Assembly (NCBI RefSeq): GCF_014202975.1
Contig: NZ_JACHHZ010000003.1
Span: 62,001 to 126,000 of the forward strand
Direction of reading: 5' to 3'
Origin: Povalibacter uvarum
GTDB lineage: Bacteria; Pseudomonadota; Gammaproteobacteria; Steroidobacterales; Steroidobacteraceae
DNA: 64,000 bases
A model generated the notes under the pieces. The model saw only the letters and a program-made list of their open reading frames with translations. It did no database searches and had not been told where the DNA came from. Made by a program: the position numbers and the translations under genes. Shown in pieces: positions 42,824-60,101 of the stretch (positions within the stretch are counted from its first letter, which is position 1; each line of letters opens with the position of its first letter).

Positions 42824-43924
42824 ATGTCGAAGCCAGTTCGCGCCGCGCTTCTTATCCTGCTGTGCGTCGCGTCGCCGGTCGGCGTGTCACGCAGCATCGC
42901 ACAGCCCGCGTCGAGTGCCGGTTGTGCCGCTGCAAACGGACTCGAGTTCATCTGCGGCGCGGAGAGACCCGAAGATCTCGCACGCATTCCCAACACGCGC
43001 TGGATCATCGCCAGCGGATTCGCCAACGGCGCCGGCCTCAAGCTCATCGATAGCGACGTTCGATCGATGCGGCACTGGTATTCGGGTACAGCTCAACAGC
43101 AAGCACTGGATGCTCAACGCTTTCCTGATTGTCATTCCGCACCGGATGCGTCCATCTTCAATGCGCAGGGAGTCAGCCTGCGGCCCGGCAAGGACTCGCG
43201 CCATACGCTGTATGTCGTGAATCATGGTGGGCGTGAAGCAATCGAGATATTCACGGTCGACGCAACAGCCGGTGAGCCTGCGCTGATCTGGAATGGCTGT
43301 GCGCTGATGCCCGAAGGGTTCGCCGCGAACAGCGTCGCCAGCTACTCGGACGGCACGATTCTCGCGAGTGTGCTCACGCGTCCCGGAAAGACGATCACGG
43401 ATTTCTGGCGGGGCGAGATCACCGGTGGAGTCTATGAATGGCGACTGGGGCGTCGGGGATTTCAGCTGCTGCCTGGCACCGAGTTGCCGGGGAACAATGG
43501 GATCGAGACCTCGCGCGATGACAGGGCGTTCTACGTCGTCGCTTTCGGATGGCGCGCTGTCGTGGTCTTCGACCGTGCGAATCCCGCGAGTTCGGCGCGC
43601 CGCCTGCAGGCGCCCGGATTCATGCCTGACAACATTCACTGGGACGGCGATCGATTGTTGCTCGCCGGAATGCAGTACGACGAGCCGGCTTGCGGAGGAA
43701 TCCGAAAGATCATCGACGGCAAGGCCGACGACATGCGATGTCATCGCGGCTACACGGTTGCGGAGCTCGATCCGACGGCTCTGGCCTTCCGAATCGTCGC
43801 GTACTCGGAGCCGAATCCGGCGTTCAACGGCGTCTCCGCAGCCGTCGTCGTCGGAAAATCGCTCTGGCTCGCGTCGTATCAGGCGGATCGAGTCGCCGTC
43901 CGAGGACTTCCCCGACCCGAATGA
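42824..43924 (+). CDS. Exported SMP-30/gluconolactonase- or paraoxonase-like beta-propeller protein
   Basis: This 366-residue protein has a signal peptide (MSKPVRAALLILLCVASPVGV) and a repeated-blade pattern of a six-bladed calcium propeller. PEDLARIPNTRWIIASG opens it, with LYVVNHGGREAIEIF, PGNNGIETSRDDRAFYVV and FMPDNIHWDGDRLLLAG as blade or calcium-site segments (Asn/Asp-rich). This matches the SMP-30/gluconolactonase/paraoxonase/strictosidine-synthase-like group, whose members hydrolyse lactones or esters. It follows the receptor within 40 bases and is probably in the same unit, so a periplasmic lactonase or esterase step on the imported compound is possible. No Shine-Dalgarno sequence is evident before the ATG. 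Confidence 0.78.
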   Translation: MSKPVRAALLILLCVASPVGVSRSIAQPASSAGCAAANGLEFICGAERPEDLARIPNTRWIIASGFANGAGLKLIDSDVRSMRHWYSGTAQQQALDAQRFPDCHSAPDASIFNAQGVSLRPGKDSRHTLYVVNHGGREAIEIFTVDATAGEPALIWNGCALMPEGFAANSVASYSDGTILASVLTRPGKTITDFWRGEITGGVYEWRLGRRGFQLLPGTELPGNNGIETSRDDRAFYVVAFGWRAVVVFDRANPASSARRLQAPGFMPDNIHWDGDRLLLAGMQYDEPACGGIRKIIDGKADDMRCHRGYTVAELDPTALAFRIVAYSEPNPAFNGVSAAVVVGKSLWLASYQADRVAVRGLPRPE

Positions 43925-44051
43925 CTCGGCCTCCGCGGGCCGGGTCGACAGAAAGTCTTCGACATCCTGCAATTGACGTTGACGCGGGAGTCCCCTCAGC
44001 ATCCGACCGGAACGGCAGGACGGCGCCGTTGGTCGTGTGAGGGAGGTTGCC

Positions 44052-46298
44052 ATGGGGTTGATCAGGTTCCCGCGTGCTGTTGTGGGAGGGTTGCTTGCGC
44101 TGACGTTCAGCGTCACAGCAGCGGGCGCCGGGCAGGAGCGGATCGGGCTCGTGCTCGGCGGCGGCGGTGCCCGGGGCGGGGCGCACATCGGGGTGCTGAA
44201 AGTGCTCGAGCGCGAACGCATTCCCATTCACGCGATCGCCGGGACGAGCGTGGGATCGATCATCGGTGGGCTGTACGCGGCGGGGTACTCCCCGGAAGAG
44301 ATCGAGGTGATCATCCGCTCGATCGACTGGATCGACATCTTCCACGACAACACCGATCGTCGGGACGAGCCGATGCGCCAGAAGGAAACCGATCTCGGCC
44401 GGCTCGCAAACCTGGAAATCGGGCTGGCCGAAGATGGCAGCCTCACTATCCCCACCACGCTCATTCGCGGCCAGAAGCTTGGGTTGCTGCTGCGGCGCAT
44501 GTTCCTTGGCCGGGCCAACATCAGCACGTTCGACCAGCTGCCGATTCCGTTTCGTTGTGTTGCCACGGACATCGGCGTCGTCAAACCGGTAGTGTTCGAT
44601 TCTGGCGATCTCGCGCTCGCGATACGGGCGAGCATGGCGGTGCCAGGTGCGTTCGCGCCAGTGAAGCACGACGGCAAAGTGCTGGTGGACGGCGGCGTCG
44701 TCGACAATGTGCCGATCGATGTCGCGCGCCAGATGGGGGTCGATCGCCTGATCGTCGTCGACGTAGGACAGCCGCTCGCGCCAGCCGAAACGGTGCATTC
44801 GGGCTTCAGCATCATGCTGCAGATGATCAGCGGAATGATGCGTGACCGCACCGATGAGCGGCTCGCGACGTTGAACGAGGACGACATATTCATCCGCCCG
44901 ACGCTTCACGGCATCACCACTGCCAGCTTCCCGCGTGCTGCCGACGGCATCGATCCGGGCGAGCAGGCTGCGCTTGCGGTCGTCGAGAAGTTGCGGTCGT
45001 TCTCCGTGTCGGAGGATGAGTACCGGGCGTGGCAGAAGACACAACGATACGAATACCCCTCGCATCCAGAAATTTCGTATGTGCACGTGGATGCCAGCCA
45101 GAGTCGCACGTCGGAGTTCGTGCACGATCGGATCAGCCAGCAGCCGGGCGAGAAGTTCGACCCGGACAGGGTCGAAAGCGACATTCGCGGCGCCTACGGC
45201 CGCGGAACGTACGATTCGATTTCGTATCACCTCTCGACGAACGAACAAGGTCAGACCGGCCTCGAGGTGCTGCCGGTGGATTCCGCGCTCGGTCGCACCG
45301 TGTTCCGGCTCGGGCTGCAGATCAGCGATGACTTCGAAGGCAATGACGACTACCAGCTGAACATCGAGAGTCGCGTGACGAGCCTGAATGAAAAGGGTGC
45401 GGAATGGCGGACTTTCGTCGGCCTCGGTCGAGTCACCGCGGCAGAGACGGATTTCTACCTGCCGTTCTCCGAGCGTGGCAACTGGTTCTTCTCGCCGCTC
45501 GCTGCGTACTACGCGCTCAATCAGCCTGTTATCGCCGACGATGGCTCGTTCAGCGAGGACCTGGCGCTCGCGCAGTATCGAGTCGAGAGCTGGTACGGAG
45601 AGCTCCGGATCGGTCGCGACTTTGGTGATCGCTTGCGGATTTCCGCCGCGGCATTGCGTGGCCAGGATCATGCTGATCTGACGATCGGCCTGCCCAACAT
45701 ATTTCCCACAACTGACCTCGCCGACGTCGGAGGATTCAACGCGACGATTCTCTGGGACAGCCTGGACAACGTGAGATTTCCGAGACGTGGCATGCGGGCC
45801 GAAGTCAGCTACACGTCGTATGACACGCACATGGGATCGGACGAAGACGGCAACCTGCTGCGCGTGAGCATCGACAAGGCACTCAGCTTCGGACGCAACA
45901 CATTCCTGCTCGGCGGCCGCGCTTCATTGGCGAAGGATTCGGTCGATGCACAGCAGTCGGGCGCGACGCTGGGCGGACTCACTTATCTGTCGGGCCTGCG
46001 CGATCGCCAGCTCTTCGGCGATCAGATGCTGCTGGTGAGGTCGATCTACTATCACCGACTGACGCAGCAGGGCCTGCTCTTCGACGTCCCGATGTATCTC
46101 GCGGGCAGCGTCGAAGGCGGCAATGTGTGGGAAGACTATGATGATGTGTCGTTCAACGACCTGATCGGCGCCGCCAGCATTTTCTTCGGCATCGACCTGC
46201 CGATCGGCCCGCTGCAGCTCGGCTACGGCCAGACGTTCGACGGCCGCAGCGCGATCTACCTGACGTTCGGGTCGCTGGTGTTGCCGGACTATAGATGA
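44052..46298 (+). CDS. Patatin-like phospholipase autotransporter (type Vd, PlpD-like)
   Basis: This 748-residue exported protein has a signal peptide (MGLIRFPRAVVGGLLALTFSVTAAGAG). An N-terminal patatin lipase domain (about 28-330) has GGGGARGGAHIG as the oxyanion loop, nucleophile S66 in GTSVGS and catalytic D213 in VDGGVVDN. One POTRA-like domain follows (about 338-410), then a 16-strand Omp85-type barrel (about 413-748) ending in LVLPDYR. This lipase-POTRA-barrel order is that of type Vd autotransporters. The ATG at 44052 with GGGAGG upstream was preferred to GTG 44037. It is convergent with the TamB-TamA fusion gene (14 bases apart), another Omp85-superfamily protein. The role may be lipid hydrolysis at the cell surface. 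Confidence 0.93.
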   Translation: MGLIRFPRAVVGGLLALTFSVTAAGAGQERIGLVLGGGGARGGAHIGVLKVLERERIPIHAIAGTSVGSIIGGLYAAGYSPEEIEVIIRSIDWIDIFHDNTDRRDEPMRQKETDLGRLANLEIGLAEDGSLTIPTTLIRGQKLGLLLRRMFLGRANISTFDQLPIPFRCVATDIGVVKPVVFDSGDLALAIRASMAVPGAFAPVKHDGKVLVDGGVVDNVPIDVARQMGVDRLIVVDVGQPLAPAETVHSGFSIMLQMISGMMRDRTDERLATLNEDDIFIRPTLHGITTASFPRAADGIDPGEQAALAVVEKLRSFSVSEDEYRAWQKTQRYEYPSHPEISYVHVDASQSRTSEFVHDRISQQPGEKFDPDRVESDIRGAYGRGTYDSISYHLSTNEQGQTGLEVLPVDSALGRTVFRLGLQISDDFEGNDDYQLNIESRVTSLNEKGAEWRTFVGLGRVTAAETDFYLPFSERGNWFFSPLAAYYALNQPVIADDGSFSEDLALAQYRVESWYGELRIGRDFGDRLRISAAALRGQDHADLTIGLPNIFPTTDLADVGGFNATILWDSLDNVRFPRRGMRAEVSYTSYDTHMGSDEDGNLLRVSIDKALSFGRNTFLLGGRASLAKDSVDAQQSGATLGGLTYLSGLRDRQLFGDQMLLVRSIYYHRLTQQGLLFDVPMYLAGSVEGGNVWEDYDDVSFNDLIGAASIFFGIDLPIGPLQLGYGQTFDGRSAIYLTFGSLVLPDYR

Positions 46299-46312
46299 CC
46301 AGCCGGCTGTTC

Positions 46313-49300
46313 TCAGAACATCTGCCCCACCGAAAAATGCACATGCACCTTCTCATCCCCGAAACCGGTCGTCAGCGGATAGCCGAAATCGAGTCGCAGC
46401 GGCGCCAGTGGCGTGCGAATGCGAAGGCCAATGCCCGCGCCCACTGCGAGATCGTTGAAGGCGATGTCTTCGAAACGTGCGAACGTGTTGCCGGCATCGA
46501 CGAACGCGACACCGCTGACCGGCCCCCAGATCGGGAACCGGGCTTCGGTATTGAGCACGACGAGCTGAGTTCCACCGAGCTCGAGCTCTCCGACGCTCAC
46601 CGCGGAGAGCGAGCCTTCGGAGTAGCCGCGAACCGAATTCGTGCCGCCAGCCGTGAAGAACAGATCGATTGCCGAAAGCGGCGCCGTGCCCGAATAGCCG
46701 TGGACGGTACCGAATCGGGTGCCGGCCGCGAACGTCACCGGTCCCCATGAGAAGAGCTGCGATTGCCGCCACAGAAACCGGTAGTAGCCGAGATCGGATC
46801 CCAGCCACTCCGTGCCCAGCTGAAGACTCAAGCTGCTGTACCAGCCGCGCGTTGCGTCGAACGCACTGTCGCGATGATCGATGATCGCGGCGATCGACGG
46901 GCCGGCGAGGTTGCCCGAGGTATTCAACTCGGTGGTGCCGTCGGAAAAGTGCACGTCGTCGTAGTTGTAGTCATACGCCCAGGTGAGCTCGATGTTCGGT
47001 GTCCACTGCCAGCGCTGTTCGATGGAGAAGTCGTGTTGAAGATGATCGAGCGTAATGCCTTGCGAATGCGCGCTCTCATCGCGACCGCTGAGATAGATGC
47101 TGGTGCGAATGGGCCAGCCGAACGAGCGGGGAGCGGAGAACAGCGCTGACAACGCACCGAGATCGGGTGTCCATTGGCCACCCAGGCTCGCTTCCATCGC
47201 GCGACCCAGGAAGTTCCGATCGGTCAGGTCCGCCGACACACCATAGGACAAGGTGTCGTCGCTGACGCCGGCGATTTCCGCGCCGGTGGACACTTCGAGA
47301 CCGTATCTGAACTGGTATCGGCGCGGCTCTTCAGTGCGCACCCACGCAAGCACGGATTGCTGGTTGCCTGCGTGATCGACGCTCGACGGTTCGAAGTCGA
47401 CGCTGACCTGCCGGAACGAGCCGATGTCGTACAGGTTCTGCCGCGTCTTCTCCAGGGCATCCTGTCCGGCGATATCACCCGCTTTCAGAGTCACCGCCTG
47501 CGTCACGAGCTTCGACGATGTGGTCTCCGCGCCGACGATGCGGACATCCTCGATGACCTGCTGCGCACCTTCTTTGACGATGACGTTGAGTGCGACCCGC
47601 GAGTTCGGCTTGTCGTGTGCCGTCTTTATATCGACAGTCGCGTCGCGATAGCCCAGCCGCATGTAGTAGCGCTTGAGCCGTTGACGGCCTTCGTTCACGG
47701 CGGCCGAACCAAACGGAGCACCGACTGGAAGATTCAGCGCCGCCAATGCGGCGTCGCGGCGTGCTGGATCGGCTCCCTTGATTTCAACCCTAGACACGAG
47801 CGTCTGCGGGCCTTCCACGATTTCGATCGGCAATACGGCCGAACTGCCGTCGAAAGTCGGTTTGCCCGCTTTCACTTTCGTATCGAGATACCCGAGTCGT
47901 GCGTATCGGCCTCGCACGATTCGCAACACCGAGTCGGGATCGACCCAGACGCTCGTCGGACCGGTCTGCGTGTCGGCGAGCGCATTCAGATCGGCGCTGG
48001 AAACGGCCTCGTTGCCTTGCCAGTTCAGCCGCAGCTTCGAGGTCTGCGGTCCTCTCTCGATGCGGACGATGGCCTTGGCGAGATCGGGAGTGTCGGAAAC
48101 GATTTCGACGTCCACCTTCGCCTGAAGGTAGTTGCGCTCGGCGAACTGCTGGCGTGCTGTTCGCGCGAACTGGTCTTTCAGGATCTGCGCGACCGGAATA
48201 CTGCGCCACACGTTGTTCATGGCTTCCATGCCGGCCTTCGGCAGCTTGTCCGCCGGGAACTCCAGCACCGTCAGTGGACCGCGCTGGATCTGGTAGTCGA
48301 GGGCGACATTCGACGCACCATCGCCCGCGACGGTTTCCTTCCGCGTGGGAATGATGCGAACGCGCTGGTAGCTGCGATCGCGATAGAACGTTTCGAGATG
48401 CGAACGATCCTCGGTCCAGCGCCGGACGTCGAATGTGCTGCCGGATTTCAGCTTCAGGCCGCGGCTCAGTTCTTCGACGGGAAAGCCGGGAGTGCCGCCG
48501 AACGTGACGTCACTGACCTTGCGTTGCCGTGTCGAGGTTCGTGACGCCGTCGCCGTCGGCGCCCGTCCGCCAGGACCGAACAGAACCGTGCGCCGGAATT
48601 CGAGGCTGCGTTCCGTGTCTTCGACCGAGGCCGCGCGGAACTGATAGTTGGGCCACGGCTTCCAGTCGAGCACCCACGTCAGTGCGCCGGTCTCGAGATT
48701 GTCGGAAAGGATCAGGGTGAATGTGCGCCCGAGCGATTTCGAGACCGTGACATGCTGCGCGGAGTCCAGGTTCTTGGAAACGAGATCGAGGTCCGCCGTG
48801 CCGATGCTCACTGAGTCGAGGCCGACGAACTTGCCCGCGAAGCCGAGGATGTCGTTGGATGCTGCCGCGAGCGCGAATTGATTGGAGTCTTCGACACCAC
48901 CCCGCGTCGATTCCACCGAACCCGTGACGATCAGCGATTTCAGGTCCCGTTCGCTGAGCGGCGGCGATGAGCTGTAGGACGTCTCGATCCGGCCGGCCGT
49001 ACCGCTGATGCGCAACGTCACGTCGTACTTGTCGATCTTGGTTTCGCCTATGACATCGAGCGTCGGCTGCAGACCCTCCGCGGGCGAGAAGTGCAGGGAG
49101 CTGGCGCGCAATTCGTACGAGCGGCCGCCCAGGCGAATGCGTCCGCCATCGAGCGTATCGATTCGCCCTGTCAGCGCTGGCGCCTCGATCGTGCCGACGA
49201 GGCGCAGATCGGGAATCAGCTCGATATCGCCAGCGCTGTTGTCGATGACGACCGGATCGGTCGTCTGGACGCCGACGTCCAGTCGCGTGGCTGCGAACCA

Positions 49301-52300
49301 TTCGGGCAGGGTGGATTCGTCGGAGTAGTCTTCGGTGGTGAGCGCGTCGACCATTTCGAGGATGCGCGTGATCGGCTCGGTGTAGCGATTCGCGGTGATC
49401 GTCGCATTGCCGGCAATGGTCGATACGCCGTCGACTGGCTGCCAGACCAGGGAGGTCGAGGTCTGGCTGTAGAGTCCGCGCGGATAGTCGAGCATCACAT
49501 CCTGTGCATCGAGACTGATGCGCCCTTTGGGTGTCTGGCTGGACAGATCGATGCGGCCGTCGATCTTCACTGCACCGCCGTTGAGGTTTCCCGCGAGCTG
49601 ATCGATCTCCAGGTTCCGGTCGCCCAGGCGCAAATGTCCGGACCAATCGGACAGCATCAGCCGCGATTCGGGAATCGCCCAGTCGGCATCGTCGAGAGCG
49701 ATGTTGGCCGTCAGGCGCGGATCGGCTGCAGAACCATTGAGCGCGACGCGGCCCGAGACGCGGCCGGTCATTCCGCGGCTCGCGATCGCCTCGAGCAGAC
49801 TGAGATCCGCCTGCAGATCCAGCGTCAGATCGTGAGTGCCGTCCGGCGTGAGTGCGACGCGGCCGTGACCAGTGACTTCGTTGCCGGTGCCTTGCCATCG
49901 AAGCTGTTGCAGTGTCGCTTCGCCACCGGCGATTCGCACGATGGTCGGTTCCGCCTGCACGAGTTCTTCGCTGCGACTCGCGATGCGACCGCTCTCGATC
50001 CGGACTTCTCCCTGCAGCGCCTGCAGTGACGGCTGCAATGCAACGAGATGCGCCGCCACGTCCACGTTGGCGCTCGAACGAACCTGCTCTTTGGTCTCGT
50101 CGTCGGAAGCGGGCGCCCATGCGAGAGCGGCTCTGGCGTCGAGCGTTGCGGGTTCGTTCGAACCGTCCGCGACGAACTTCCAGCCTGCCGGCAACCAGTC
50201 GTTCGCCCAGCTCAGAGGAATGCGGCCCGTGGCATGAGCTTCGCCATCGTTCGTCGTACCGCGAAATTCCGTGATCGCGGCGCGCGATCCAGTGAAGTCC
50301 ACTCGCAACTCTGCGTCTCTCAGGAGGGCGGCATCTTTGTGCGAGATTGCCAGCTCGGGCGCCGACAGGTTGCCTCGCAAGGCCAGTCCGGACGACGATC
50401 GCTGCAATTGCATTGCGCTCGAGATGCGGCCATCGACAGTGAATGGATCGTGCCCTTGCGCGGCCGAGGCGATGGGTCGCAGCGATGCAAGATCACCCTC
50501 GAGCGTCAGCGATGCATGGCCGTCCGGCTTGCGTAGCCCGAAATCGGCGGACATGCGCATTGCGACGTCACCGATCTTCGCGGTCGCCTCGTCCAGTTGC
50601 AGCCGTGCGTTGTCGAGCCGCGCACGAAGCGGCGATTCGACATGGATCGGAACGCCTTCCAGCGATGCATCCGACAGCGAAGCCTCGACGCCTACGGATG
50701 TCGCAAGAAGGTCGTCGGCCGCGCCACGGAATGAGATGTCACCGTCGACCTGACCGGCGACGTCAGCAGGCACACCGGCCGCAGCGAGCATCCCGGCGAT
50801 CGACGCTCTCCGGACCCGGCCCTGGCCATTGAACGCGTAGGGTTCGCGCGTTGCGATCTGGCCATCGACATTCAATCCAAAGGTGGACTCGCGCAGGTGA
50901 AGGTTCACGATGCGATCCGACAGGTCGACGTTCGCATGCAGCGGGCCGACTCGCTGACTGCGCAGCTCGGCGCTGCTGATCGTCAGTGATGCGATTCCTT
51001 TCGGGCGATCGAGCGTGCCATCGATATCGATGCGCAGCGACGTGTCGTTGATCCGCGCGACGCCACCGTCGTCCGCGACCCAGCGAGCCGTGAGGTTCTC
51101 TCCCGAGCCCCGGAGCGACAGTTCCTTCGAGGCGAACGTGTACCGAGCGGATGCGTCGAGGCGACCTCCCTGCGGCTGCACGAGCTGCAATCGCTCGACA
51201 TCGATGCTCTCTTTCGAGAAGCGGGCGTCGAAAGATGCGTTTCCGATGGGGTTACCGTCGAAGGCGAGTCGCTGTCCCCGCATCGCAATGCGGCCCTTGG
51301 GCGCCGCGATGGGTCCGGCCCAGCTCGCTGATGCAATCAGGTCACCTTGCACGCCAGCCTGTTTCGCAGCGGACAGCGCGGAGTTCAGTCGAAGCGTGCC
51401 GGTTGACGTTGCATCGCCCAGATTCGCGGCGAACTGTGCTTCCAGATCGGCGTTTGGCCACGGGTCGACCCGCAGCCCCGGGGCTTTGAGGTGGCCGTCG
51501 ATCTGCAACGCACCGAGCGTTCCGTTCAGCGTTCCCTCGAGCCTGGCGGTGCCGGACGTTGTCGAGGCATCGACAGGATCGAGCGGAATGCCCCAGGCCT
51601 GAATTCGCTCGAGGGCTGCCCCAACATCCGTAACGTTCAACGCCACTCGCCCGTGAACCGGAGCGTCGCGCCACGCATTGGCCTCCGCGCCGAGAGCCTT
51701 CATTCCGAGTTCTGCCGTGAGCTTCGCGTTCCAGGCACTCTCGCTGCTCGCCGTCAGCGCGATATCTGTCAGCGAGCCTCGCGGCACGGCATCGATGTCG
51801 ATGTCGACGACTTCGCCTGCTGCACCGGCTGCGGCGTCCAGCCGCAGGTGTATTTGCGGCGGCTCTCCCGCAGTGGCCGCTGTCCATCGAAGCTCTGCTG
51901 TTCCGGTGCTCGGCAACGGGCGGCGTTCGCCGTGCGTTGCGATGAGCTGTCGAAGATCCAGCGTCTTCCATTCGGTACTGACGCGGCTCGTTGCGCCCGT
52001 ATCGATTGACCCGGTCGCCTGCAACTCGCCTCCTGCGATTCGTACCCGCAGGCGTTCCACCTCAACCGTTCCCGAATGCCATGCGCCGGCGAGTTCCGCC
52101 TCGCTCGCCGCGTAATGCGCCCATGTGAGATCGCGACCGGACCCATGGAGCTCGGCAGCGGGGTCGACGAGCGCACCGCGCACCCGGCCAGATAGTGTCA
52201 GCACGCCGGCCAGCGGTTCAGGTGTCTTATCTGTCCTCCAGGTCGCAAGATCGCTCGTCCCCTCGAGGCGCAGATCGAGTTCGGGATGATCGCCTGCGAC

Positions 52301-53029
52301 TTCGGCGAAGCCGTTGCCGGTCAGATGAGTCCCCGCGCCGATGGCGCGAAACTGGGCGATCGAAAGCTTCGTACCATCGAATGTCAGGTCGGCTTCGACG
52401 GACGTCAGATCCTGGCGCAGAGTCTCGAGATCGACGACCAAGCCACCCCGCGCTTCGATTCGTCCGGTGGCTTCCCGGCCGCCTTCGTGCGCTGTCACAG
52501 CGAGCCGGACGCCTCGTACCTCGTAGCGATGAGACTCGCGTTCGATGACAACGTCGAGCCCTTCGATATCGAGCGTGGGAATCCAGAGATCGCCTTTCTC
52601 ATCCGCGCTCTCCCCGAACCTGGGGAGGTTGGTCGACCCGTTGCGTTCGTGAATCGAAAGCGTCGGTAGTCGCAGCGCGACCTCGCGAATGCGCACTTCG
52701 CCGAGAAGGATCTGAGGGCCCAGGCCGACAGAGACGCGTTCAGTGCTGAAGAAGGGCTCGTCGGGCGTAGCAACACCGGCGATGGAGAGGTTTTCCAGAG
52801 TCCCTGACAACGTAAGCACGTTGTATGTCAGAGCGCTGGCTCGCAGTATCAGGCCATGGGCGCGCGCGATGTCGACGATCTGCGCGAGAACATATGCACG
52901 CATCGGCGGAAGGTGCGCGATGGCGAGTGTTGCCAGAAGGATCGCGCCGATCCCGAGCACGACCCAGCCGACGGTTCGCCGCACAGGTCGCGGCGATCGC
53001 GGCAGAGGATCGCGATCGACTCCCTTCAT
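46313..53029 (-). CDS. Giant TamB-TamA fusion: AsmA/TamB-like translocation protein joined to Omp85 barrel
   Basis: A single 2238-residue ORF. Residues about 19-42 form one inner-membrane anchor (TVGWVVLGIGAILLATLAIA). A body of about 1,400 residues of short amphipathic beta strands follows, typical of TamB beta-taco proteins, closing with the DUF490 end at about 1150-1480 (YSSSPPLSERDLKSLIVTG, VSIGTADLDLVSK). After a short Ser/Thr/Arg linker (about 1480-1500) come POTRA domains (about 1505-1900, starting VTFGGTPGFPVEELSRGL) and an Omp85 barrel (about 1905-2238) with the lid motif SVRGYSEG and a C-terminal Phe. In most proteobacteria TamA and TamB are separate partners that move lipids and proteins between membranes. 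Here one chain would span inner membrane, periplasm and outer membrane. Confidence 0.93.
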   Translation of the reverse strand: MKGVDRDPLPRSPRPVRRTVGWVVLGIGAILLATLAIAHLPPMRAYVLAQIVDIARAHGLILRASALTYNVLTLSGTLENLSIAGVATPDEPFFSTERVSVGLGPQILLGEVRIREVALRLPTLSIHERNGSTNLPRFGESADEKGDLWIPTLDIEGLDVVIERESHRYEVRGVRLAVTAHEGGREATGRIEARGGLVVDLETLRQDLTSVEADLTFDGTKLSIAQFRAIGAGTHLTGNGFAEVAGDHPELDLRLEGTSDLATWRTDKTPEPLAGVLTLSGRVRGALVDPAAELHGSGRDLTWAHYAASEAELAGAWHSGTVEVERLRVRIAGGELQATGSIDTGATSRVSTEWKTLDLRQLIATHGERRPLPSTGTAELRWTAATAGEPPQIHLRLDAAAGAAGEVVDIDIDAVPRGSLTDIALTASSESAWNAKLTAELGMKALGAEANAWRDAPVHGRVALNVTDVGAALERIQAWGIPLDPVDASTTSGTARLEGTLNGTLGALQIDGHLKAPGLRVDPWPNADLEAQFAANLGDATSTGTLRLNSALSAAKQAGVQGDLIASASWAGPIAAPKGRIAMRGQRLAFDGNPIGNASFDARFSKESIDVERLQLVQPQGGRLDASARYTFASKELSLRGSGENLTARWVADDGGVARINDTSLRIDIDGTLDRPKGIASLTISSAELRSQRVGPLHANVDLSDRIVNLHLRESTFGLNVDGQIATREPYAFNGQGRVRRASIAGMLAAAGVPADVAGQVDGDISFRGAADDLLATSVGVEASLSDASLEGVPIHVESPLRARLDNARLQLDEATAKIGDVAMRMSADFGLRKPDGHASLTLEGDLASLRPIASAAQGHDPFTVDGRISSAMQLQRSSSGLALRGNLSAPELAISHKDAALLRDAELRVDFTGSRAAITEFRGTTNDGEAHATGRIPLSWANDWLPAGWKFVADGSNEPATLDARAALAWAPASDDETKEQVRSSANVDVAAHLVALQPSLQALQGEVRIESGRIASRSEELVQAEPTIVRIAGGEATLQQLRWQGTGNEVTGHGRVALTPDGTHDLTLDLQADLSLLEAIASRGMTGRVSGRVALNGSAADPRLTANIALDDADWAIPESRLMLSDWSGHLRLGDRNLEIDQLAGNLNGGAVKIDGRIDLSSQTPKGRISLDAQDVMLDYPRGLYSQTSTSLVWQPVDGVSTIAGNATITANRYTEPITRILEMVDALTTEDYSDESTLPEWFAATRLDVGVQTTDPVVIDNSAGDIELIPDLRLVGTIEAPALTGRIDTLDGGRIRLGGRSYELRASSLHFSPAEGLQPTLDVIGETKIDKYDVTLRISGTAGRIETSYSSSPPLSERDLKSLIVTGSVESTRGGVEDSNQFALAAASNDILGFAGKFVGLDSVSIGTADLDLVSKNLDSAQHVTVSKSLGRTFTLILSDNLETGALTWVLDWKPWPNYQFRAASVEDTERSLEFRRTVLFGPGGRAPTATASRTSTRQRKVSDVTFGGTPGFPVEELSRGLKLKSGSTFDVRRWTEDRSHLETFYRDRSYQRVRIIPTRKETVAGDGASNVALDYQIQRGPLTVLEFPADKLPKAGMEAMNNVWRSIPVAQILKDQFARTARQQFAERNYLQAKVDVEIVSDTPDLAKAIVRIERGPQTSKLRLNWQGNEAVSSADLNALADTQTGPTSVWVDPDSVLRIVRGRYARLGYLDTKVKAGKPTFDGSSAVLPIEIVEGPQTLVSRVEIKGADPARRDAALAALNLPVGAPFGSAAVNEGRQRLKRYYMRLGYRDATVDIKTAHDKPNSRVALNVIVKEGAQQVIEDVRIVGAETTSSKLVTQAVTLKAGDIAGQDALEKTRQNLYDIGSFRQVSVDFEPSSVDHAGNQQSVLAWVRTEEPRRYQFRYGLEVSTGAEIAGVSDDTLSYGVSADLTDRNFLGRAMEASLGGQWTPDLGALSALFSAPRSFGWPIRTSIYLSGRDESAHSQGITLDHLQHDFSIEQRWQWTPNIELTWAYDYNYDDVHFSDGTTELNTSGNLAGPSIAAIIDHRDSAFDATRGWYSSLSLQLGTEWLGSDLGYYRFLWRQSQLFSWGPVTFAAGTRFGTVHGYSGTAPLSAIDLFFTAGGTNSVRGYSEGSLSAVSVGELELGGTQLVVLNTEARFPIWGPVSGVAFVDAGNTFARFEDIAFNDLAVGAGIGLRIRTPLAPLRLDFGYPLTTGFGDEKVHVHFSVGQMF

Positions 53030-53220
53030 GACTTCGGTCCGCTGAACGATGAGCGGTGGAACTGTTGTCTTATGGGCCAGCCGCCAGCTGAACGGAGGCC
53101 TCTCGATCAGTCATATACCGCGTGCGCGGGCCGTGCGCCATTCGCAACGCCCGTGCGGTCGAACTGACTATTCTTCCAGCCCTTCGAGCGGGCGCCGGAG
53201 GGCGATCTGGCGCCCAAGGT

Positions 53221-53240
53221 CTTGCCCGGTCTTGCCCGGG
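53221..53240. repeat. Tandem 10-bp direct repeat
   Basis: CTTGCCCGGT is followed directly by CTTGCCCGGG in the 233-base gap between the TamB-TamA start and the small lipoprotein gene. No function is apparent. Confidence 0.4.
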
Positions 53241-53262
53241 GTCCTGGTCTTATCGATTCAGG

Positions 53263-53496
53263 CTAGTTGTTTGGGGCAGTGTTTTCTGCCTCTTCCCGGT
53301 TCATGCGGGCGAGCCGCTGTTCAGCCTGGCGCGCCGCCTTCATCTCATCCGGAGATCGCTTTTCGGTCGGTGCGAATGAGTACACGCCCACCGCGCCGAT
53401 CGGAGTAATCAGTGCTTTGGTGCTCGGGGTGCTCACACATCCACCGAGCGCGACAGCAGCGGCAAGGAAAATGAAAGTGTGTCGTAGCGACTTCAT
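53263..53496 (-). CDS. Small lipoprotein
   Basis: A 77-residue protein with a lipoprotein signal: positive MKSLRHTF, a hydrophobic core, and the lipobox LGGC with Cys at residue 20. The mature part is about 58 residues, polar and partly helical (SPDEMKAARQAEQRLARMN). A GGAG ribosome site lies about 10 bases before the ATG. It should be anchored in the periplasmic leaflet of a membrane. I do not recognise a family. It lies upstream of the TamB-TamA gene on the same strand, 233 bases away, so co-expression is possible but not shown. Confidence 0.75.
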   Translation of the reverse strand: MKSLRHTFIFLAAAVALGGCVSTPSTKALITPIGAVGVYSFAPTEKRSPDEMKAARQAEQRLARMNREEAENTAPNN

Positions 53497-53876
53497 GCAG
53501 GAATATCTCCGTCACGATTTCCTGCTGTGTAAACGCACGAGACCGCCTGGAGGTTGAGTCGAAAGCGTTGCTTTTGCGCCGCGCTTCGCTCATCGGCGAC
53601 GTCCATCGATCGACCACCTGCGTTAAAGAGTTCCCCTCCCGACTGACAAATTCGGTCACGTTGGCGATATTTCGGTGCGGCCGCGCCGCTGCGGTTTAAC
53701 AGTTGTCGTTCACGCATTCAGGGAACCGATGCAATCGCATGAACGGCTTGTGACGGCGCGCACTGTCCGGGATGAACTGTGATGCCGTTCTCGCTGTGCA
53801 TTCCGCGTCGCTGCGTAGAGTGCCGCTCGGCTCGCGATTCGCGAGACGTCTATCAAGAAAGCAAGGAGTGACAGGT
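53497..53876. other. 380-base intergenic region before the bactofilins
   Basis: This is a divergent promoter region between the lipoprotein and bactofilin genes. I see no convincing gene. It holds a short palindrome at 53831-53845. An isolated TGTAAACG half-site near 53528 lacks its second half. Confidence 0.5.
53831..53845. promoter_or_regulatory. Perfect palindrome CTCGCGATTCGCGAG before bactofilin genes
   Basis: Seven-base arms CTCGCGA/TCGCGAG around a single T, 31 bp upstream of the first bactofilin start. It could be a protein-binding site or an mRNA hairpin; the role is unproven. Confidence 0.3.
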
Positions 53877-54269
53877 ATGAGCAATCCATACGATACCGCT
53901 TCCGAGCGGATGTCGATCCTGCCGCGCAGCCTGAAGTTCAAGGGCGAACTCTCGGCTGACGAGGATCTGTTGATTCAAGGCTCCATCGAAGGAACGATTC
54001 ATCACACCCAGCGCGTGACGATCGGCACTGAAGGCAACGTCAAAGCCAGCATCAGCGCGCAGATCATCAAGGTCGAAGGAACCGTCGAGGGTGACCTGCA
54101 GGCAGGCAAGTCTGTGTACGTCGATCAGTCCGGCAATCTCCGCGGCAACATCCGCGCGCCGTCCGTGTGCCTCGTGGAAGGTTCGAACTTCAACGGCGCC
54201 GTGGACATGGGTTCTCGCGCGGCCCAGGCCAATCCGCGCGCCACGCGCACAGGGACGAACGGCGGCTAA
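53877..54269 (+). CDS. Bactofilin (first of two)
   Basis: This 130-residue bactofilin is a cytoskeletal protein that polymerises into filaments and scaffolds cell-wall or polar structures. The ATG at 53877 follows AAGGAG. The central bactofilin domain is a right-handed beta-helix with repeating turns: FKGELSADEDLLIQGSIEG, VTIGTEGNVKASI, KVEGTVEGDLQAG and VYVDQSGNLRGNI. The short disordered tails are rich in Ser/Asn and Arg/Thr. It is tandem with a second bactofilin 54 bases downstream; paired bactofilins often co-assemble. Confidence 0.95.
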   Translation: MSNPYDTASERMSILPRSLKFKGELSADEDLLIQGSIEGTIHHTQRVTIGTEGNVKASISAQIIKVEGTVEGDLQAGKSVYVDQSGNLRGNIRAPSVCLVEGSNFNGAVDMGSRAAQANPRATRTGTNGG

Positions 54270-54323
54270 ACAAGCTGCAGGACGAGCGTGTCACTCTTTG
54301 ACCGGATACTGAGGAGAAATAGC

Positions 54324-54824
54324 ATGCGCAATCTGATTCTGGACACCCGCGCCGACAACGAGGCGACGCGGATCCAGCCGCAACCTTCCTTCGCCGTCCC
54401 GCCGCCGCGGCAGAGCGAACAGAAGGCGATCGCCGTTCTCGGCCCGACGCTGCGTTTCAAGGGCGAACTGAGCGCGGAAGAAGACTTCATCCTGCAGGGC
54501 CAGCTCGAGGGCTCGATCAATCACACGCAGAGCGTCACGATCGGCACCGACGGCTCCGTGGTCGGCAACATCCACGCCCGCCACATCACGATCGACGGCA
54601 AAGTGGAAGGCGACCTGCATGCGACCGAGGCGGTCGTCGTGCACGCCACCGGCGAGCTGACCGGCAACATCTTTGCTCCGAAGGTCGGCATCGTCGAAGG
54701 TGCTTTCTTCAACGGACGCGTCGAGATGGGCGAAGCCCGTGCATCAGGCCGCCGGCCCAATGCGCGACCCGGCGTGCCCCTTTCTTCGGAAGAGACGGAG
54801 CGAATGCTGTCGGAGGGCGATTGA
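54324..54824 (+). CDS. Bactofilin (second of two)
   Basis: This 166-residue bactofilin is homologous to the preceding one; its core FKGELSAEEDFILQGQLEG and VTIGTDGSVVGNI align turn by turn. The N-terminal tail is longer (about 45 residues, Pro-rich) and the C-terminal tail ends LSSEETERMLSEGD. The ATG at 54324 is preceded by GAGGAGA; a GTG twelve codons upstream lacks a ribosome site. The gene pair ends in a strong bidirectional terminator. Functions of bactofilins vary (stalk, polarity, peptidoglycan hydrolase placement), so no specific role is claimed. Confidence 0.95.
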   Translation: MRNLILDTRADNEATRIQPQPSFAVPPPRQSEQKAIAVLGPTLRFKGELSAEEDFILQGQLEGSINHTQSVTIGTDGSVVGNIHARHITIDGKVEGDLHATEAVVVHATGELTGNIFAPKVGIVEGAFFNGRVEMGEARASGRRPNARPGVPLSSEETERMLSEGD

Positions 54825-54851
54825 TTTCGTCGGACGAACGTCGATGAAATG

Positions 54852-54885
54852 AAAAGGGCTCACTTCATGTGAGCCCTTTTTCTTT
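54852..54885. terminator. Bidirectional Rho-independent terminator
   Basis: A perfect 12-bp stem (AAAAGGGCTCAC / GTGAGCCCTTTT) with a TTCAT loop is followed by TCTTT on the plus strand and flanked by A's, so it has a U-run in both directions. It serves the bactofilin pair and the convergent hydrolase gene. Confidence 0.92.
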
Positions 54886-54906
54886 GTGCGATGAGAAAGC
54901 GTGGAT

Positions 54907-55737
54907 TCAGGTCGCGAGCTTCTCTTCGATGCCCGCGATGAGCGGGCGGTCATCGTGCTCCCAGGGATGGAACCCGGGGCGATAGAAACTCATGTACGCA
55001 CCGAAGATCTTGCGCAGCATGCCCGGCTTCACGAAGTGGAATTTCAGGACGCGCCACCAGGTGCCCGGCTTGTTGATGCCGTCCTGGCGGAAGAAGTCCG
55101 CCATGTGACGGCGATTCGAACTCCAGAACTGGATGCTGATCAGCAGCATCACCTTGCAGCGGATGAAGTAGCGGCGCCAGGCCGGCATGTTCTTCGTCAC
55201 GGCGAGATAAGTGTCGTAAGCGACGCTCTTATGTTCGATTTCCTCGATCGCATGCCATTGCCACAGCTTGCGTACGTCCGCGGGCGCGCCCGGCAGGGGA
55301 TCGCGGTCGACGAGCAGCGAATGCGCCATGATCGCGGTGAAGTGCTCCAGGGCCACCGTCATCGCGAGCTGCCCGATCGGGTGCCGCGTACGGGCCAGAT
55401 CCAGCCGCATCCGGGTGTGTGCGTCCATCGCGGTGGTGTCGTAGCCCGCGCCTTTGACGAGCTTGTTGAAGACCACGTGCTCGCGCGTATGCATGGCTTC
55501 CTGCTGCACGAACGCGTTGATCTGCTCCTTCAGGACGGGATCGACTTCATCGCGATAACGGCGCACCGCCTCGATGAAGAACGTTTCTCCTTGCGGGAAC
55601 GTCACTGAAAGCGCATTGAAGAAGGCGGTCGCCACCGGATCGCCGCCGTGCCACCAGCGGGGATTGGTACCATCGCGCTCCACGTTCAGTTTGCGGGGCG
55701 TGATCGTGAGATCGGCGGGTGTGGTTGCACTTGCCAT
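54907..55737 (-). CDS. Metal-dependent hydrolase family protein (COG3687 / PF10118-type)
   Basis: This 276-residue cytoplasmic protein is helical with many His/Glu pairs of a ferritin-like or metal-dependent fold: FVQQEAMHTREH, ALEHFTAIMAHS and WHAIEEIEHKSVAYD. These match the predicted metal-dependent hydrolase family (COG3687), common in proteobacteria next to TetR regulators and lipid or steroid genes. Enzymatic activity in this family is poorly defined. The gene is divergent from a TetR regulator; the palindrome at 55793 lies between them, so it is the probable target of that regulator. Confidence 0.85.
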   Translation of the reverse strand: MASATTPADLTITPRKLNVERDGTNPRWWHGGDPVATAFFNALSVTFPQGETFFIEAVRRYRDEVDPVLKEQINAFVQQEAMHTREHVVFNKLVKGAGYDTTAMDAHTRMRLDLARTRHPIGQLAMTVALEHFTAIMAHSLLVDRDPLPGAPADVRKLWQWHAIEEIEHKSVAYDTYLAVTKNMPAWRRYFIRCKVMLLISIQFWSSNRRHMADFFRQDGINKPGTWWRVLKFHFVKPGMLRKIFGAYMSFYRPGFHPWEHDDRPLIAGIEEKLAT

Positions 55738-55792
55738 AAACGAGCCTCGGGCGGGGATCGGAAGCGATGCGGACCGCAGGCATCTAAATTCT

Positions 55793-55812
55793 TATTGAGA
55801 TTGTTGTCAATA
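55793..55812. promoter_or_regulatory. Candidate operator of the 55813 TetR regulator
   Basis: Inverted repeat TATTGA (8 bases) TCAATA that abuts the GTG start codon of the TetR gene and lies about 55 bp upstream of the divergent hydrolase start. Position suggests autoregulation of both genes. Confidence 0.5.
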
Positions 55813-56436
55813 GTGGCTACCCAGAAAAAGCAGCTCACGAAACGCATCCGCCGGACCCCCGAGGAAGCCCGGGCCCTGGCGCTGGAATCAGCGCGACGTC
55901 TGCTGATCGCGGAAGGCCCTGATGCCATTACGCTTCAGGCCGTCGCCGCCGACCTGGGCATGAGCCACACCAACCTGATCCACCATTTCGGATCGGCCGG
56001 CGGCCTGCAATCCGCCCTGATGGGGGAAATGGTCCGGGAGCTCACATCGGTCCTGGAGAAGGCCGTCGAGCGCTTTCGGGCCGGCGAGGGCAGCGAGCAG
56101 GATTTCGTCGACATCGTCTTCGAGGTCTTCGACAAGGGCGGAGCGGGACGCCTGGCGGCGTGGATCGTGCTCTCGGGGGAATCGGACAAGCTCGAGCCCG
56201 TCGGCGAAGTCGTGCGGACCTATATCCGCAATGTCGAACGGGGTGCGGACGATGCCCACGGCGACGTGCATGAACGCATCACCTCAGCCTCGTTGCTGGT
56301 GACCCTGGCTGCGTTCGGCGATGCAGTGATCGGCGACAGCATCGGTTCGATGATGGGCCGCGAACGCAAAGCGATGCGCCGCATCATTGCCGAGCTGCTA
56401 CCGATGGTGCTGATGCCCCCCAAGAGGGGGAAGTAA
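55813..56436 (+). CDS. TetR-family transcriptional regulator
   Basis: This 207-residue regulator has an N-terminal Lys/Arg-rich arm (QKKQLTKRIRR) and the TetR HTH (ALALESARRLLIAEGPDAITLQAVAADL with recognition helix MSHTNLIHHFG). The C-terminal ligand domain is helical. I chose the GTG at 55813, which directly follows the inverted repeat; upstream in-frame codons lie in the divergent promoter. If transcription starts close to the repeat, the mRNA may have almost no leader. It is divergent from the metal-dependent hydrolase gene, its likely target. Confidence 0.88.
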   Translation: MATQKKQLTKRIRRTPEEARALALESARRLLIAEGPDAITLQAVAADLGMSHTNLIHHFGSAGGLQSALMGEMVRELTSVLEKAVERFRAGEGSEQDFVDIVFEVFDKGGAGRLAAWIVLSGESDKLEPVGEVVRTYIRNVERGADDAHGDVHERITSASLLVTLAAFGDAVIGDSIGSMMGRERKAMRRIIAELLPMVLMPPKRGK

Positions 56437-56450
56437 GAGGAGACAGAAGA

Positions 56451-56544
56451 TTTTCCACGGGGAGCACGCGGCACCACGGGGTCAGAAAGAGTTCTTTCAA
56501 AGAAATTGTCTTTCCCCGTGTTCCCCCGTGCTCCCCGTGGAAAA
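56451..56544. repeat. 94-bp nested palindrome between convergent genes
   Basis: Perfect 18-base outer arms (56451-56468 and 56527-56544; TTTTCCACGGGGAGCACG and its complement) enclose a second pair (CACGGGG / CCCCGTG) and a small central palindrome TTCTTTCAAAGAA. It sits between the 3' ends of a TetR gene and a convergent gene and can fold into one long hairpin. This looks like a dispersed intergenic repeat or a two-way terminator. Confidence 0.8.
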
Positions 56545-56576
56545 TCCGGGCTCCGTTCCGGCTCCGGCTACGTGCC

Positions 56577-57113
56577 TCAGCCCGCGTCCTCGATCTGCAC
56601 GCCGAACGTGTTCAGCGCCATCGACACCATCGTGTACTGGCCGACGGTGAAGACGAGGTCGATGACCTGTTTCTCGTTGTAATGCTTCACCAGCGCTGAC
56701 CACGTTGCGTCGGTGATGAATGAATCCCCATGCAGCTCATCGGTCGCTTGCAGGAGCGTGCGCTCAGCATCTGTCCATCCTTCCGCCGCTGCCCCGATCT
56801 TCGTTTTCTCGATCTCTGCGTCCGAGAGACCTGCCGCCTTGCCGACGCGGGTGTGCTGATGGAATTCATAGCCGGATCGACACAGATGCCCGACGCGAAG
56901 AATCGCGATCTCGCGATCCCGCGCCGGCAGCGATGACTTGAACAGGATGTGATTGCCGAACGGCGTCCAGCGCTTGTAGAGATCCGGATGCCGGACGAGC
57001 GTCTTGAAAATGTTCAGCACGCGCGCCGGATTGCCGCGAGTGAGCAGCTCGCGCTGCTCATCACTCCATTCCTGTTCCGCCAGCGGCGCAATCCGGGGCG
57101 CGTTCAGACGCAT
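56577..57113 (-). CDS. Carboxymuconolactone decarboxylase (CMD)/AhpD-like family protein
   Basis: This 178-residue all-helical protein has the CMD core: SLPARDREIAILRVGHLCRSGYEFHQHTRVGKAAGLSDAEI in which the usual AhpD CxxC pair is absent (a single Cys in HLCRSGYE, with EFHQH where the motif normally lies), so it is not a thiol peroxidase of the standard type. Such proteins are often lactone decarboxylase-like or unassigned. It lies 60 bases downstream of the molybdenum hydroxylase genes on the same strand and is probably in their operon. A short heptamer repeat occupies the gap. Function unknown. Confidence 0.85.
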   Translation of the reverse strand: MRLNAPRIAPLAEQEWSDEQRELLTRGNPARVLNIFKTLVRHPDLYKRWTPFGNHILFKSSLPARDREIAILRVGHLCRSGYEFHQHTRVGKAAGLSDAEIEKTKIGAAAEGWTDAERTLLQATDELHGDSFITDATWSALVKHYNEKQVIDLVFTVGQYTMVSMALNTFGVQIEDAG

Positions 57114-57140
57114 CGTGATCAGTGTCCTTGTCCGCTCTGA

Positions 57141-57161
57141 CTAACCGCTAACCGCCAACCG
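57141..57161. repeat. Three tandem 7-bp repeats (CTAACCG)
   Basis: CTAACCG, CTAACCG and CCAACCG stand in tandem in the 60-base gap between the molybdenum hydroxylase gene and the CMD-like gene. Likely a simple-sequence element; no function seen. Confidence 0.5.
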
Positions 57162-57173
57162 CTATTCACTTCT

Positions 57174-59423: not shown

Positions 59424-59431
59424 GATGCACC

Positions 59432-59893
59432 TCACTCGTGCGTGTTGCCGGCCGCGGCGTGAATGGCTTTACGAATCCGCTGGTACGTGCCGCAGCGGCA
59501 GATGTTGCCGCTCATCGCGGCATCGATATCGGCGTCGGTCGGCTTCGGATTGCGATTGAGCAGCGCGGTGGCCGACATGATCTGGCCGGCCTGGCAGTAA
59601 CCGCACTGAGCGACGTCATGTTCGACCCAGGCTGCCTGCACCGCAGTGAGCTTGCCGCCGGCGGCGAGTCCTTCGATGGTGGTCACTTTCTGACCAGCGA
59701 CCGCGGAGACCGGCAGCACGCACGAACGCGTGGGTGCGCCGTTGAGGTGCACGGTGCAGGCTCCGCACTGCGCGACGCCACAGCCGTACTTTGTGCCAAC
59801 CAGGTTCAGCTGATCCCGGAGCACCCACAGCAGCGGGGTCGTTTCATCGATGTTGCCGAGGTCAAGGTCTTTGCCGTTTACATTGAGGCGCAT
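59432..59893 (-). CDS. (2Fe-2S) small subunit of molybdenum hydroxylase (IorA-like)
   Basis: This 153-residue subunit has two iron-sulfur clusters. The N-terminal plant-ferredoxin-type cluster is in [17 protein letters not shown] plus SCVLPVS, and the C-terminal cluster in [10 protein letters not shown] and [10 protein letters not shown]. Length is typical of IorA/CoxS. The ATG at 59893 starts [12 protein letters not shown], the usual family N-terminus; the open frame upstream is not needed. It transfers electrons from the molybdenum site of the large subunit encoded immediately downstream. No FAD subunit or XdhC-type maturation factor is visible in the window. Confidence 0.95.
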
Positions 59894-60101
59894 GGCGGGA
59901 TCTCGCTGCAAAGAAGGGGGAATGTCGTCGTGGGCAATGCGCCCGATTGTTCCACGGTCGCGGGGCCCGAACAACGCTGGCGGTCGAGCGCCACGTGCGT
60001 CCCGTCGCACGCGCAGTGAGCGGGGTTTCCCTGCATTTCTCCCCCGGAACCCGGTGAGGGGTCCGGGCATTTTTCAGTACCTGTCTTTGTGGAGAATTGT
60101 T

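Follow-up and report, generated by a model that had tools for sequence, protein, structure and literature searches.

A 64,000-nucleotide stretch of the Povalibacter uvarum genome (contig NZ_JACHHZ010000003.1, positions 62,001 to 126,000; hereafter the window) contains a gene in which TamB, complete from its signal anchor to its terminal strand, continues in the same frame into an Omp85 protein without a signal peptide. The encoded protein is a genuine single-chain version, found more than once, of a two-protein machine that is already known, the translocation and assembly module (TAM); it does not represent a new kind of system. We consider it probable that the gene makes a TAM-like bridge in a single chain, which would be an added and specialised device that evolved convergently. 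A first-pass annotation had described the gene as a natural TamB-TamA fusion. The fusion of TamB with an Omp85 protein was borne out by Pfam domains of both halves in one frame; the second half of the name was not.

The open reading frame (ORF) starts with ATG and is free of internal stops over all 2238 codons (Table 1), so that the single uninterrupted frame seen initially was confirmed. Under a null model using the gene's own position-specific base composition, a stop-free run of this length has p ~1e-17. Hydropathy analysis revealed one hydrophobic segment in the fusion protein, at residues 20-38, and past residue 60 no 19-residue window of the whole protein averaged above 1.6. The segment is a predicted signal anchor of TamB type, in agreement with the N-terminal membrane anchor proposed before. 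Profile searches of the ORF placed PF04357, POTRA and Omp85 domains all above their cut-offs, as had been anticipated. PF04357 (DUF490/TamB) scored 95.3 bits against a cut-off of 22.4, with its best stretch at residues 1146-1438 and a second at 1047-1116, and was overlapped by an AsmA match of 40 bits (cut-off 29.8). The POTRA family PF07244 reached 107.6 bits over four stretches, the first of which begins at residue 1505. When the region was scanned piecewise, residues 1505-1583, 1745-1821 and 1825-1881 exceeded the Pfam cut-off of 21.3 bits, residues 1671-1739 stayed below it at 17.5 bits, and a very weak match of 13 bits was found around 1622-1648. The distance from the linker to the barrel match is 435 residues (1504-1938), and the Omp85 half probably carries five POTRAs, two of which are weakly supported. 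The barrel match (PF01103, 144.8 bits) covers residues 1939-2238; barrels of the Omp85 family have 16 strands. The SVRGY lid reported by the first-pass annotation is present at 2132-2136, and barrel, POTRA and lid together identify the second half as a member of the Omp85 superfamily that retains the invariant glycines and the GG..SVRGY lid.

The two halves are joined by a short, flexible-looking linker rich in Gly, Pro, Ala, Thr, Ser and Arg, located at the site where, in split pairs, TamB stops and the signal peptide of Omp85 follows. No Cys occurs within residues 1441-1560. No signal-peptide-like stretch was detected before POTRA1 in any of three frames (by hydropathy only; start codons were not scanned separately), and a separate exported Omp85 gene is thus not hidden at the junction. 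The G+C content at third codon positions (GC3), measured in steps of 300 codons, stays between 0.69 and 0.80 along the gene and does not shift where the halves meet; the codon-position bias is maintained over the entire gene. Codon usage differs little between the TamB and Omp85 halves and lies within the range of 13 other genes in the window, with the TamB half near the low end; it does not clearly point to recent import.

The family identity of each half was assessed with NCBIfam models. The Omp85 half scored 99 bits with the TamA model NF047950 (cut-off 625) and 220.8 bits with the BamA model TIGR03303 (cut-off 297.15), i.e. higher for BamA than for TamA and below cut-off for both. The genome's own split TamA likewise stayed under 625, at 379.5 bits. 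With the TamL model, the Omp85 half reached 70.1 bits (cut-off 400), and a lipobox signal is absent at its start. The TamB half scored 51.9 bits with the TamB equivalog NF047952 (cut-off 825), a model that we assume was built on proteobacterial TamB. Similar sub-cut-off profiles (BamA/TamA bits) were obtained for a split partner, L118 (201/85), and for the two further fusions described below, L089 (217/113) and L090 (192/67). Some proteobacterial TamA-type proteins also show such a profile, e.g. L029 (204/194), so the scores alone cannot place the Omp85 half. In trees it forms a long, weakly placed branch lying outside both proteobacterial clades, that of TamA and that of BamA. Membership of the TamA family is not supported, given the missed NF047950 cut-off and the probable five POTRAs, where TamA is described with three in the relevant passages of PMC4104836. 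A role as the cell's canonical outer-membrane-protein insertase was rejected, because the genome encodes a distinct canonical BamA (L004 at G000:C1:715791, 757 bits). On these sequence grounds, the safe name is 'TamB-Omp85 fusion'.

The same genome also holds a split pair, tamA then tamB (L078). Judged by gene content, the fusion is an addition to a normal TAM and a normal beta-barrel assembly machinery (BAM). In the comparison of fused and split arrangements in related genomes, suggested by the first-pass annotation, the split pair was found in the fusion's own genome, and the fusion in none of 13 congeners (75-100% complete). In these, the fusion gene found DNA matches only to pieces of 42 and 70 bases, and no whole-protein match.

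Two further fusions were found in the phylum that contains the Kiritimatiellae, which we take to be the Verrucomicrobiota of GTDB. A search of this phylum gave matches at E<=1e-14 in 196 of 288 genomes, and among the matches listed were frames of 1849 and 1970 codons. These belong to L089 (1844 residues) and L090 (1968 residues), both of which are TamB-POTRA-Omp85 fusions with PF04357, POTRA and Omp85 all over cut-off. In both, TamB ends where it ends in split relatives, and Omp85 begins just after the position of the split relatives' signal peptide; L108 does not align at the Omp85 start in this comparison, its own start having been called too early. The linkers are Pro- and charge-rich, 24 and 26 residues long by hand count, and linker sequences differ among all three fusions. 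A PF04357 survey of the phylum found matches in 79 of 387 genomes, with frames of at least 1800 only in the genomes of L089 and L090. A third long frame, in G1133 (1796), showed TamB alone, and the contig continued for 0.9 kb past it. Among 19 fetched split TamB loci (L099 and L101-L118), Omp85 directly follows TamB in 16, although 12 of the 19 had been selected for already visible side-by-side TamB and Omp85 matches. Of the remaining three, L099 lacks a match to Omp85 on the strand concerned, and the loci L115 and L116 stop 0.6-0.9 kb past TamB. Genes abut or overlap in 14 of the 16 tandems, measured from the first possible start, and those of L109 abut in the same frame. Three other loci (L091 2069-5695, L092 2061-5687 and L093 2952-6539) encode Omp85 proteins of 1196-1209 residues that are extended at the N-terminus by ~450 residues; only L091 was scanned, and Pfam recognised nothing but POTRA and Omp85 domains in it.

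The trees place L089 and L090 firmly among different split relatives. L089 groups with the split L118, with a Shimodaira-Hasegawa-like approximate likelihood ratio test (SH-aLRT) value of 95 in the Omp85 tree and support of 99/96 in the TamB tree. L090 lies in a clade together with five split tandems (100 and 100/99, respectively), where its nearest relative is L108 with weaker support (89 and 94/93). In approximately unbiased (AU) tests, a single clade of all three fusions was rejected (p-AU 1.6e-58 for Omp85 and 1.0e-45 for TamB), as was a single clade of L089 and L090 (p-AU 1.5e-6; Omp85 tree only). The best reading of these results is that fusion has originated independently at least three times. 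Among the matches listed, the highest Omp85-half scores were to proteins of the Kiritimatiellae-containing phylum (E 2e-51, ~30% identity). We do not propose a transfer from there, as the tree joins the window protein neither to those proteins nor to the TamB partners.

Gene order bears on the origin. In this genome and in those Pseudomonadota loci whose gene order was inspected, tamA precedes tamB, and an arrangement of TamB followed by Omp85 is not derivable from that order by simple stop loss. TamB is followed by BamA in five Treponema/Spirochaetaceae loci, and passages of PMC4494059 give the order TamB-BamA for Spirochaetes and BamA-TamB for Acidobacteria. The window fusion probably arose from a tandem of tamB followed by omp85 that lost the intervening stop; this order is the reverse of the genome's tamA-tamB.

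Several points weigh against a one-chain bridge that evolved convergently. The groups compared in the AU tests were defined by architecture, yet the tests were run after the trees had been seen, and they are subject to the model's long-branch pull. The branches leading to the two halves of the window protein measure 1.89 and 2.69 changes per column. With long-branched window rows and post hoc tests, the exact p-values are not to be trusted, and any assignment of kin or donor is uncertain. The window fusion falls outside the clade of split TamB-Omp85 tandems, which thus do not show its own split ancestor, and the genomes searched held no close homologue of it. Finally, the linker may be cut after export, which would abolish the one-chain property.

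Such a cut would make the gene product a polyprotein: an exported chain processed in the linker into an ordinary separate TamB and Omp85 that form a TAM-like complex. The short, flexible-looking linker, the Pro- and charge-rich linkers of the other two fusions and the complete appearance of both halves are consistent with this explanation. The junction lacks a signal-peptide-like hydrophobic segment, however, and the linker sequences are unlike among the three fusions, and we regard processing as unlikely. A correct frame could also represent a degenerating or marginal additional copy that has no specific role. This would fit the lack of a whole-gene homologue in all 13 congeners, the long branches of both halves and the presence of a split TAM and BamA in the same genome. 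Against it stand 2238 open codons, the conserved Omp85 glycines and lid, a codon-position bias that persists throughout, and codon usage within the range of the 13 window genes (TamB half at the low end), and we give it little credence. That sequencing or assembly joined two genes might be suspected from a genome in 11 contigs. An artefact is nevertheless very unlikely, because the frame is open, POTRA1 is not preceded by a hidden signal peptide in three frames, and GC3 and codon usage run smoothly across the junction; two similar fusions elsewhere (L089 and L090) argue the same way.

If the single chain persists as we favour, its N-terminal helix would stay in the inner membrane, the TamB groove would cross the periplasm carrying phospholipid or unfolded beta-strands, and BAM would insert the C-terminal barrel into the outer membrane. 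One polypeptide would then be integral to both membranes with the stoichiometry fixed at 1:1. The 1:1 bridging chain envisaged by the first-pass annotation indeed follows from a single chain, unless the linker is cut. For E. coli TamAB, passages of a cryo-electron microscopy study from 2026 (PMC12800296) place TamB 892-994 in contact with POTRA1, 1001-1011 mainly with POTRA2 and 1153-1167 with POTRA3; in one of two states, the final strand (1251-1259) is paired with the first strand of the barrel. Phospholipid transport in the TamB cavity is also described there. A Borrelia BamA-TamB model resembles E. coli TamAB and has a predicted hybrid barrel, according to passages of PMC13382580. By analogy with E. 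coli TamAB, the last TamB strands of the fusion would pair with barrel strand 1 in cis, and the 19-residue linker, which arithmetic puts at ~65-70 Å at most when stretched, would tie the last strand to POTRA1. Since the E. coli TamB C-terminus sits at the barrel, the fused chain would have to turn back to POTRA1. A linker this short between the last strand and POTRA1, at the far end of the POTRA chain, should therefore restrict formation of a hybrid barrel: the tether may pull POTRA1 toward the membrane, or limit the lifetime or the extent of hybrid-barrel formation. The earlier suggestion that the halves are joined exactly where the partners interact holds insofar as POTRA1-3 do contact TamB, but the last TamB strand pairs with the barrel. 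Direct evidence for a geometry of the TamB C-terminus on the POTRA domains cannot be claimed from the sequence. In E. coli the partner of that strand is barrel strand 1 and not POTRA1.

Working beside a normal TAM and BAM, the fusion would be an added, specialised bridge and not a replacement. We lean slightly towards the view that it is a self-contained lipid and protein bridge from an alpha-helical inner-membrane anchor to an outer-membrane beta-barrel, and that such a collapse into one chain has happened at least three times. At issue is how TamB passes lipid or protein on to the Omp85 partner, at what stoichiometry, and how long their contact lasts. In natural one-chain versions, apparently three of independent origin, the stoichiometry would be fixed and the last TamB strand bound to POTRA1 by ~19-26 residues. 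They may show which contact geometries suit function, and structural work on them would need only one protein. A biogenesis puzzle arises as well, as BAM would have to insert a barrel whose N-terminus already sits anchored in the inner membrane. If the proposal is true, a lasting 1:1 complex in cis, in which a tether holds POTRA1 to the last TamB strand, is workable. The interest of the fusion lies in structure and biogenesis.

Searches for other relatives covered three overlapping samples, together 839 other genomes; Acidobacteriota, Myxococcota and similar phyla lay outside them. With the whole-protein query, no fused match was found in 97 other relatives (E<=1e-3), 368 others of the class (E<=1e-20) or 397 others of the phylum (E<=1e-22). 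The large searches scored 2-3 first-look candidates per genome, and a divergent fusion may be missed by them. The TamB part alone (E<=1e-6) had matches in 43 of the 397 others of the phylum. The longest TamB-matching frames (2069, 1960 and then 1618 residues) were rejected as fusions, being tamA-then-tamB pairs; the rest, below 1600, were left unopened. A 1557-residue frame in G018 was also rejected, as it is TamA with open frame upstream. No other fusion in Pseudomonadota was thus seen within the searched samples, whose phylum name is taken from the grouping of same-class genomes with Advenella and Pelistega in a tree. An Omp85 frame in G291:C64 (L077 4805-6505) reaches the contig end and may be another fusion. 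Genome contigs gave no match to the whole-protein query, and 14 Omp85/BamA-like loci with query A3. Viral contigs gave no match in three scans made only to collect rows for structure prediction. Among plasmids, 56 records matched; in none did one place cover 80% of the query, and coverage was at most 32% among the 15 matches listed. A sequence search of the PDB with the TamB part found no credible match. An alignment that included TamB rows of Treponema put them in the wrong place and was left out of the analysis.

The statement that no natural fusion had been characterised agrees with the open-licence literature searched (the titles and abstract starts listed), in which no natural TamB-TamA or TamB-BamA fusion was found; the two fusions from another phylum, both uncharacterised, qualify it. 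The words 'fused' and 'fusion' are absent from the main text of PMC4494059, PMC11014939, PMC12045153, PMC12800296 and PMC13382580. Fusions of outer-membrane pore proteins are treated in PMC4827864, in passages that do not concern TamB.

The fusion gene lies in a segment bounded by a patatin gene and xanthine-dehydrogenase-like genes. In the congener G002, the patatin match and a match to window 57174-59957 are separated by 9 bases, so the intervening 10.9 kb is either extra here or lost in G002. The convergent patatin neighbour, which presumably is PlpD-like, is kept in several congeners without the fusion. In congener G011 (L072 2981-3535) this patatin-Omp85 gene seems internally deleted or diverged, and its matches to window 44466-44797 and 46076-46292 adjoin. 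Two adjacent bactofilin genes (window 53772-54824) are divergent from the fusion gene; bactofilin matches in G001, G003 and G011 are on contigs other than that of the patatin gene. Between a TonB-dependent receptor and the patatin gene, window 42945-43902 is ~70% conserved in G001, G003 and G011, and a plus-strand ORF tested there had no Pfam or NCBIfam match. A ~100-base element at 56430-56557, which we take to be REP-like, matches itself on both strands and has many copies here and in G002.

Table 1. Features of the TamB-Omp85 fusion gene and its surroundings (window coordinates)
Feature	Position	Strand	Basis
Whole fusion ORF	46313..53029	minus	ATG start, 2238 residues and stop, no internal stops
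Signal anchor/inner-membrane helix, residues 20-38, preceded by basic N-terminus	52916..52972	minus	hydropathy
TamB-like beta-rich body, residues 39-1484	48578..52915	minus	Pfam and NCBIfam
PF04357 (DUF490/TamB) core, residues 1047-1440	48710..49891	minus	Pfam
Last TamB strand, residues 1475-1484	48578..48607	minus	junction sequence; pairing with barrel strand 1 expected by homology (passages of PMC12800296)
Linker, 19 residues (1485-1503)	48521..48577	minus	junction sequence, hydropathy, POTRA start
POTRA region, residues 1504-1935	47225..48520	minus	Pfam
Omp85 barrel domain, residues 1939-2238 (ends at last residue)	46316..47215	minus	Pfam PF01103
SVRGY lid motif, residues 2132-2136	46622..46636	minus	sequence
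Extra segment: fusion gene, two bactofilins, metal-dependent hydrolase, TetR, CMD gene	46299..57173		absent in G002
Convergent patatin-like phospholipase, weak C-terminal Omp85 match	44037..46298	plus	15.1 bits, cut-off 24

Compared with known systems, the fusion shares with TamA-TamB of E. coli and other Pseudomonadota the TamB anchor, beta-rich body and PF04357 terminus, the POTRA domains and Omp85 barrel, and the expected bridging of two membranes. Those are two proteins encoded as tamA then tamB, whereas the fusion has TamB first in one chain, probably has five POTRAs and misses the TamA and TamB equivalog cut-offs. The TamB-BamA pairs of spirochaetes (Treponema and Borrelia) have the same TamB-then-Omp85 order, a five-POTRA partner and, in Borrelia, a predicted hybrid barrel (passages of PMC13382580); they are two proteins, however, and the fusion's Omp85 half scores below the BamA cut-off in a genome with a separate BamA. 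TamL-TamB of Bacteroidota likewise combines TamB with a non-BamA Omp85 partner in a predicted hybrid barrel (passages of PMC12045153), but TamL is a separate lipoprotein, and its model gave the window Omp85 half 70.1 bits against 400.

The split tandems of the Kiritimatiellae-containing phylum (L101-L114, L117 and L118) are similar in gene order and tight spacing, and L118, the only one scored, is below both cut-offs as well; they are two genes each, and the window fusion lies outside their clade. Omp85-WD40 proteins, which have been likened to a fusion of BamA with BamB, also couple Omp85 to a domain resembling a partner, although the partner is a different one and the passages of PMC4104836 concerned mention no inner-membrane anchor. 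L089 and L090 are built alike, with TamB, a linker of 24 or 26 residues and Omp85 without a signal peptide in one frame; they differ in their separate origins, as indicated by tree and AU test, and in the smaller number of POTRAs that Pfam recognises in them.

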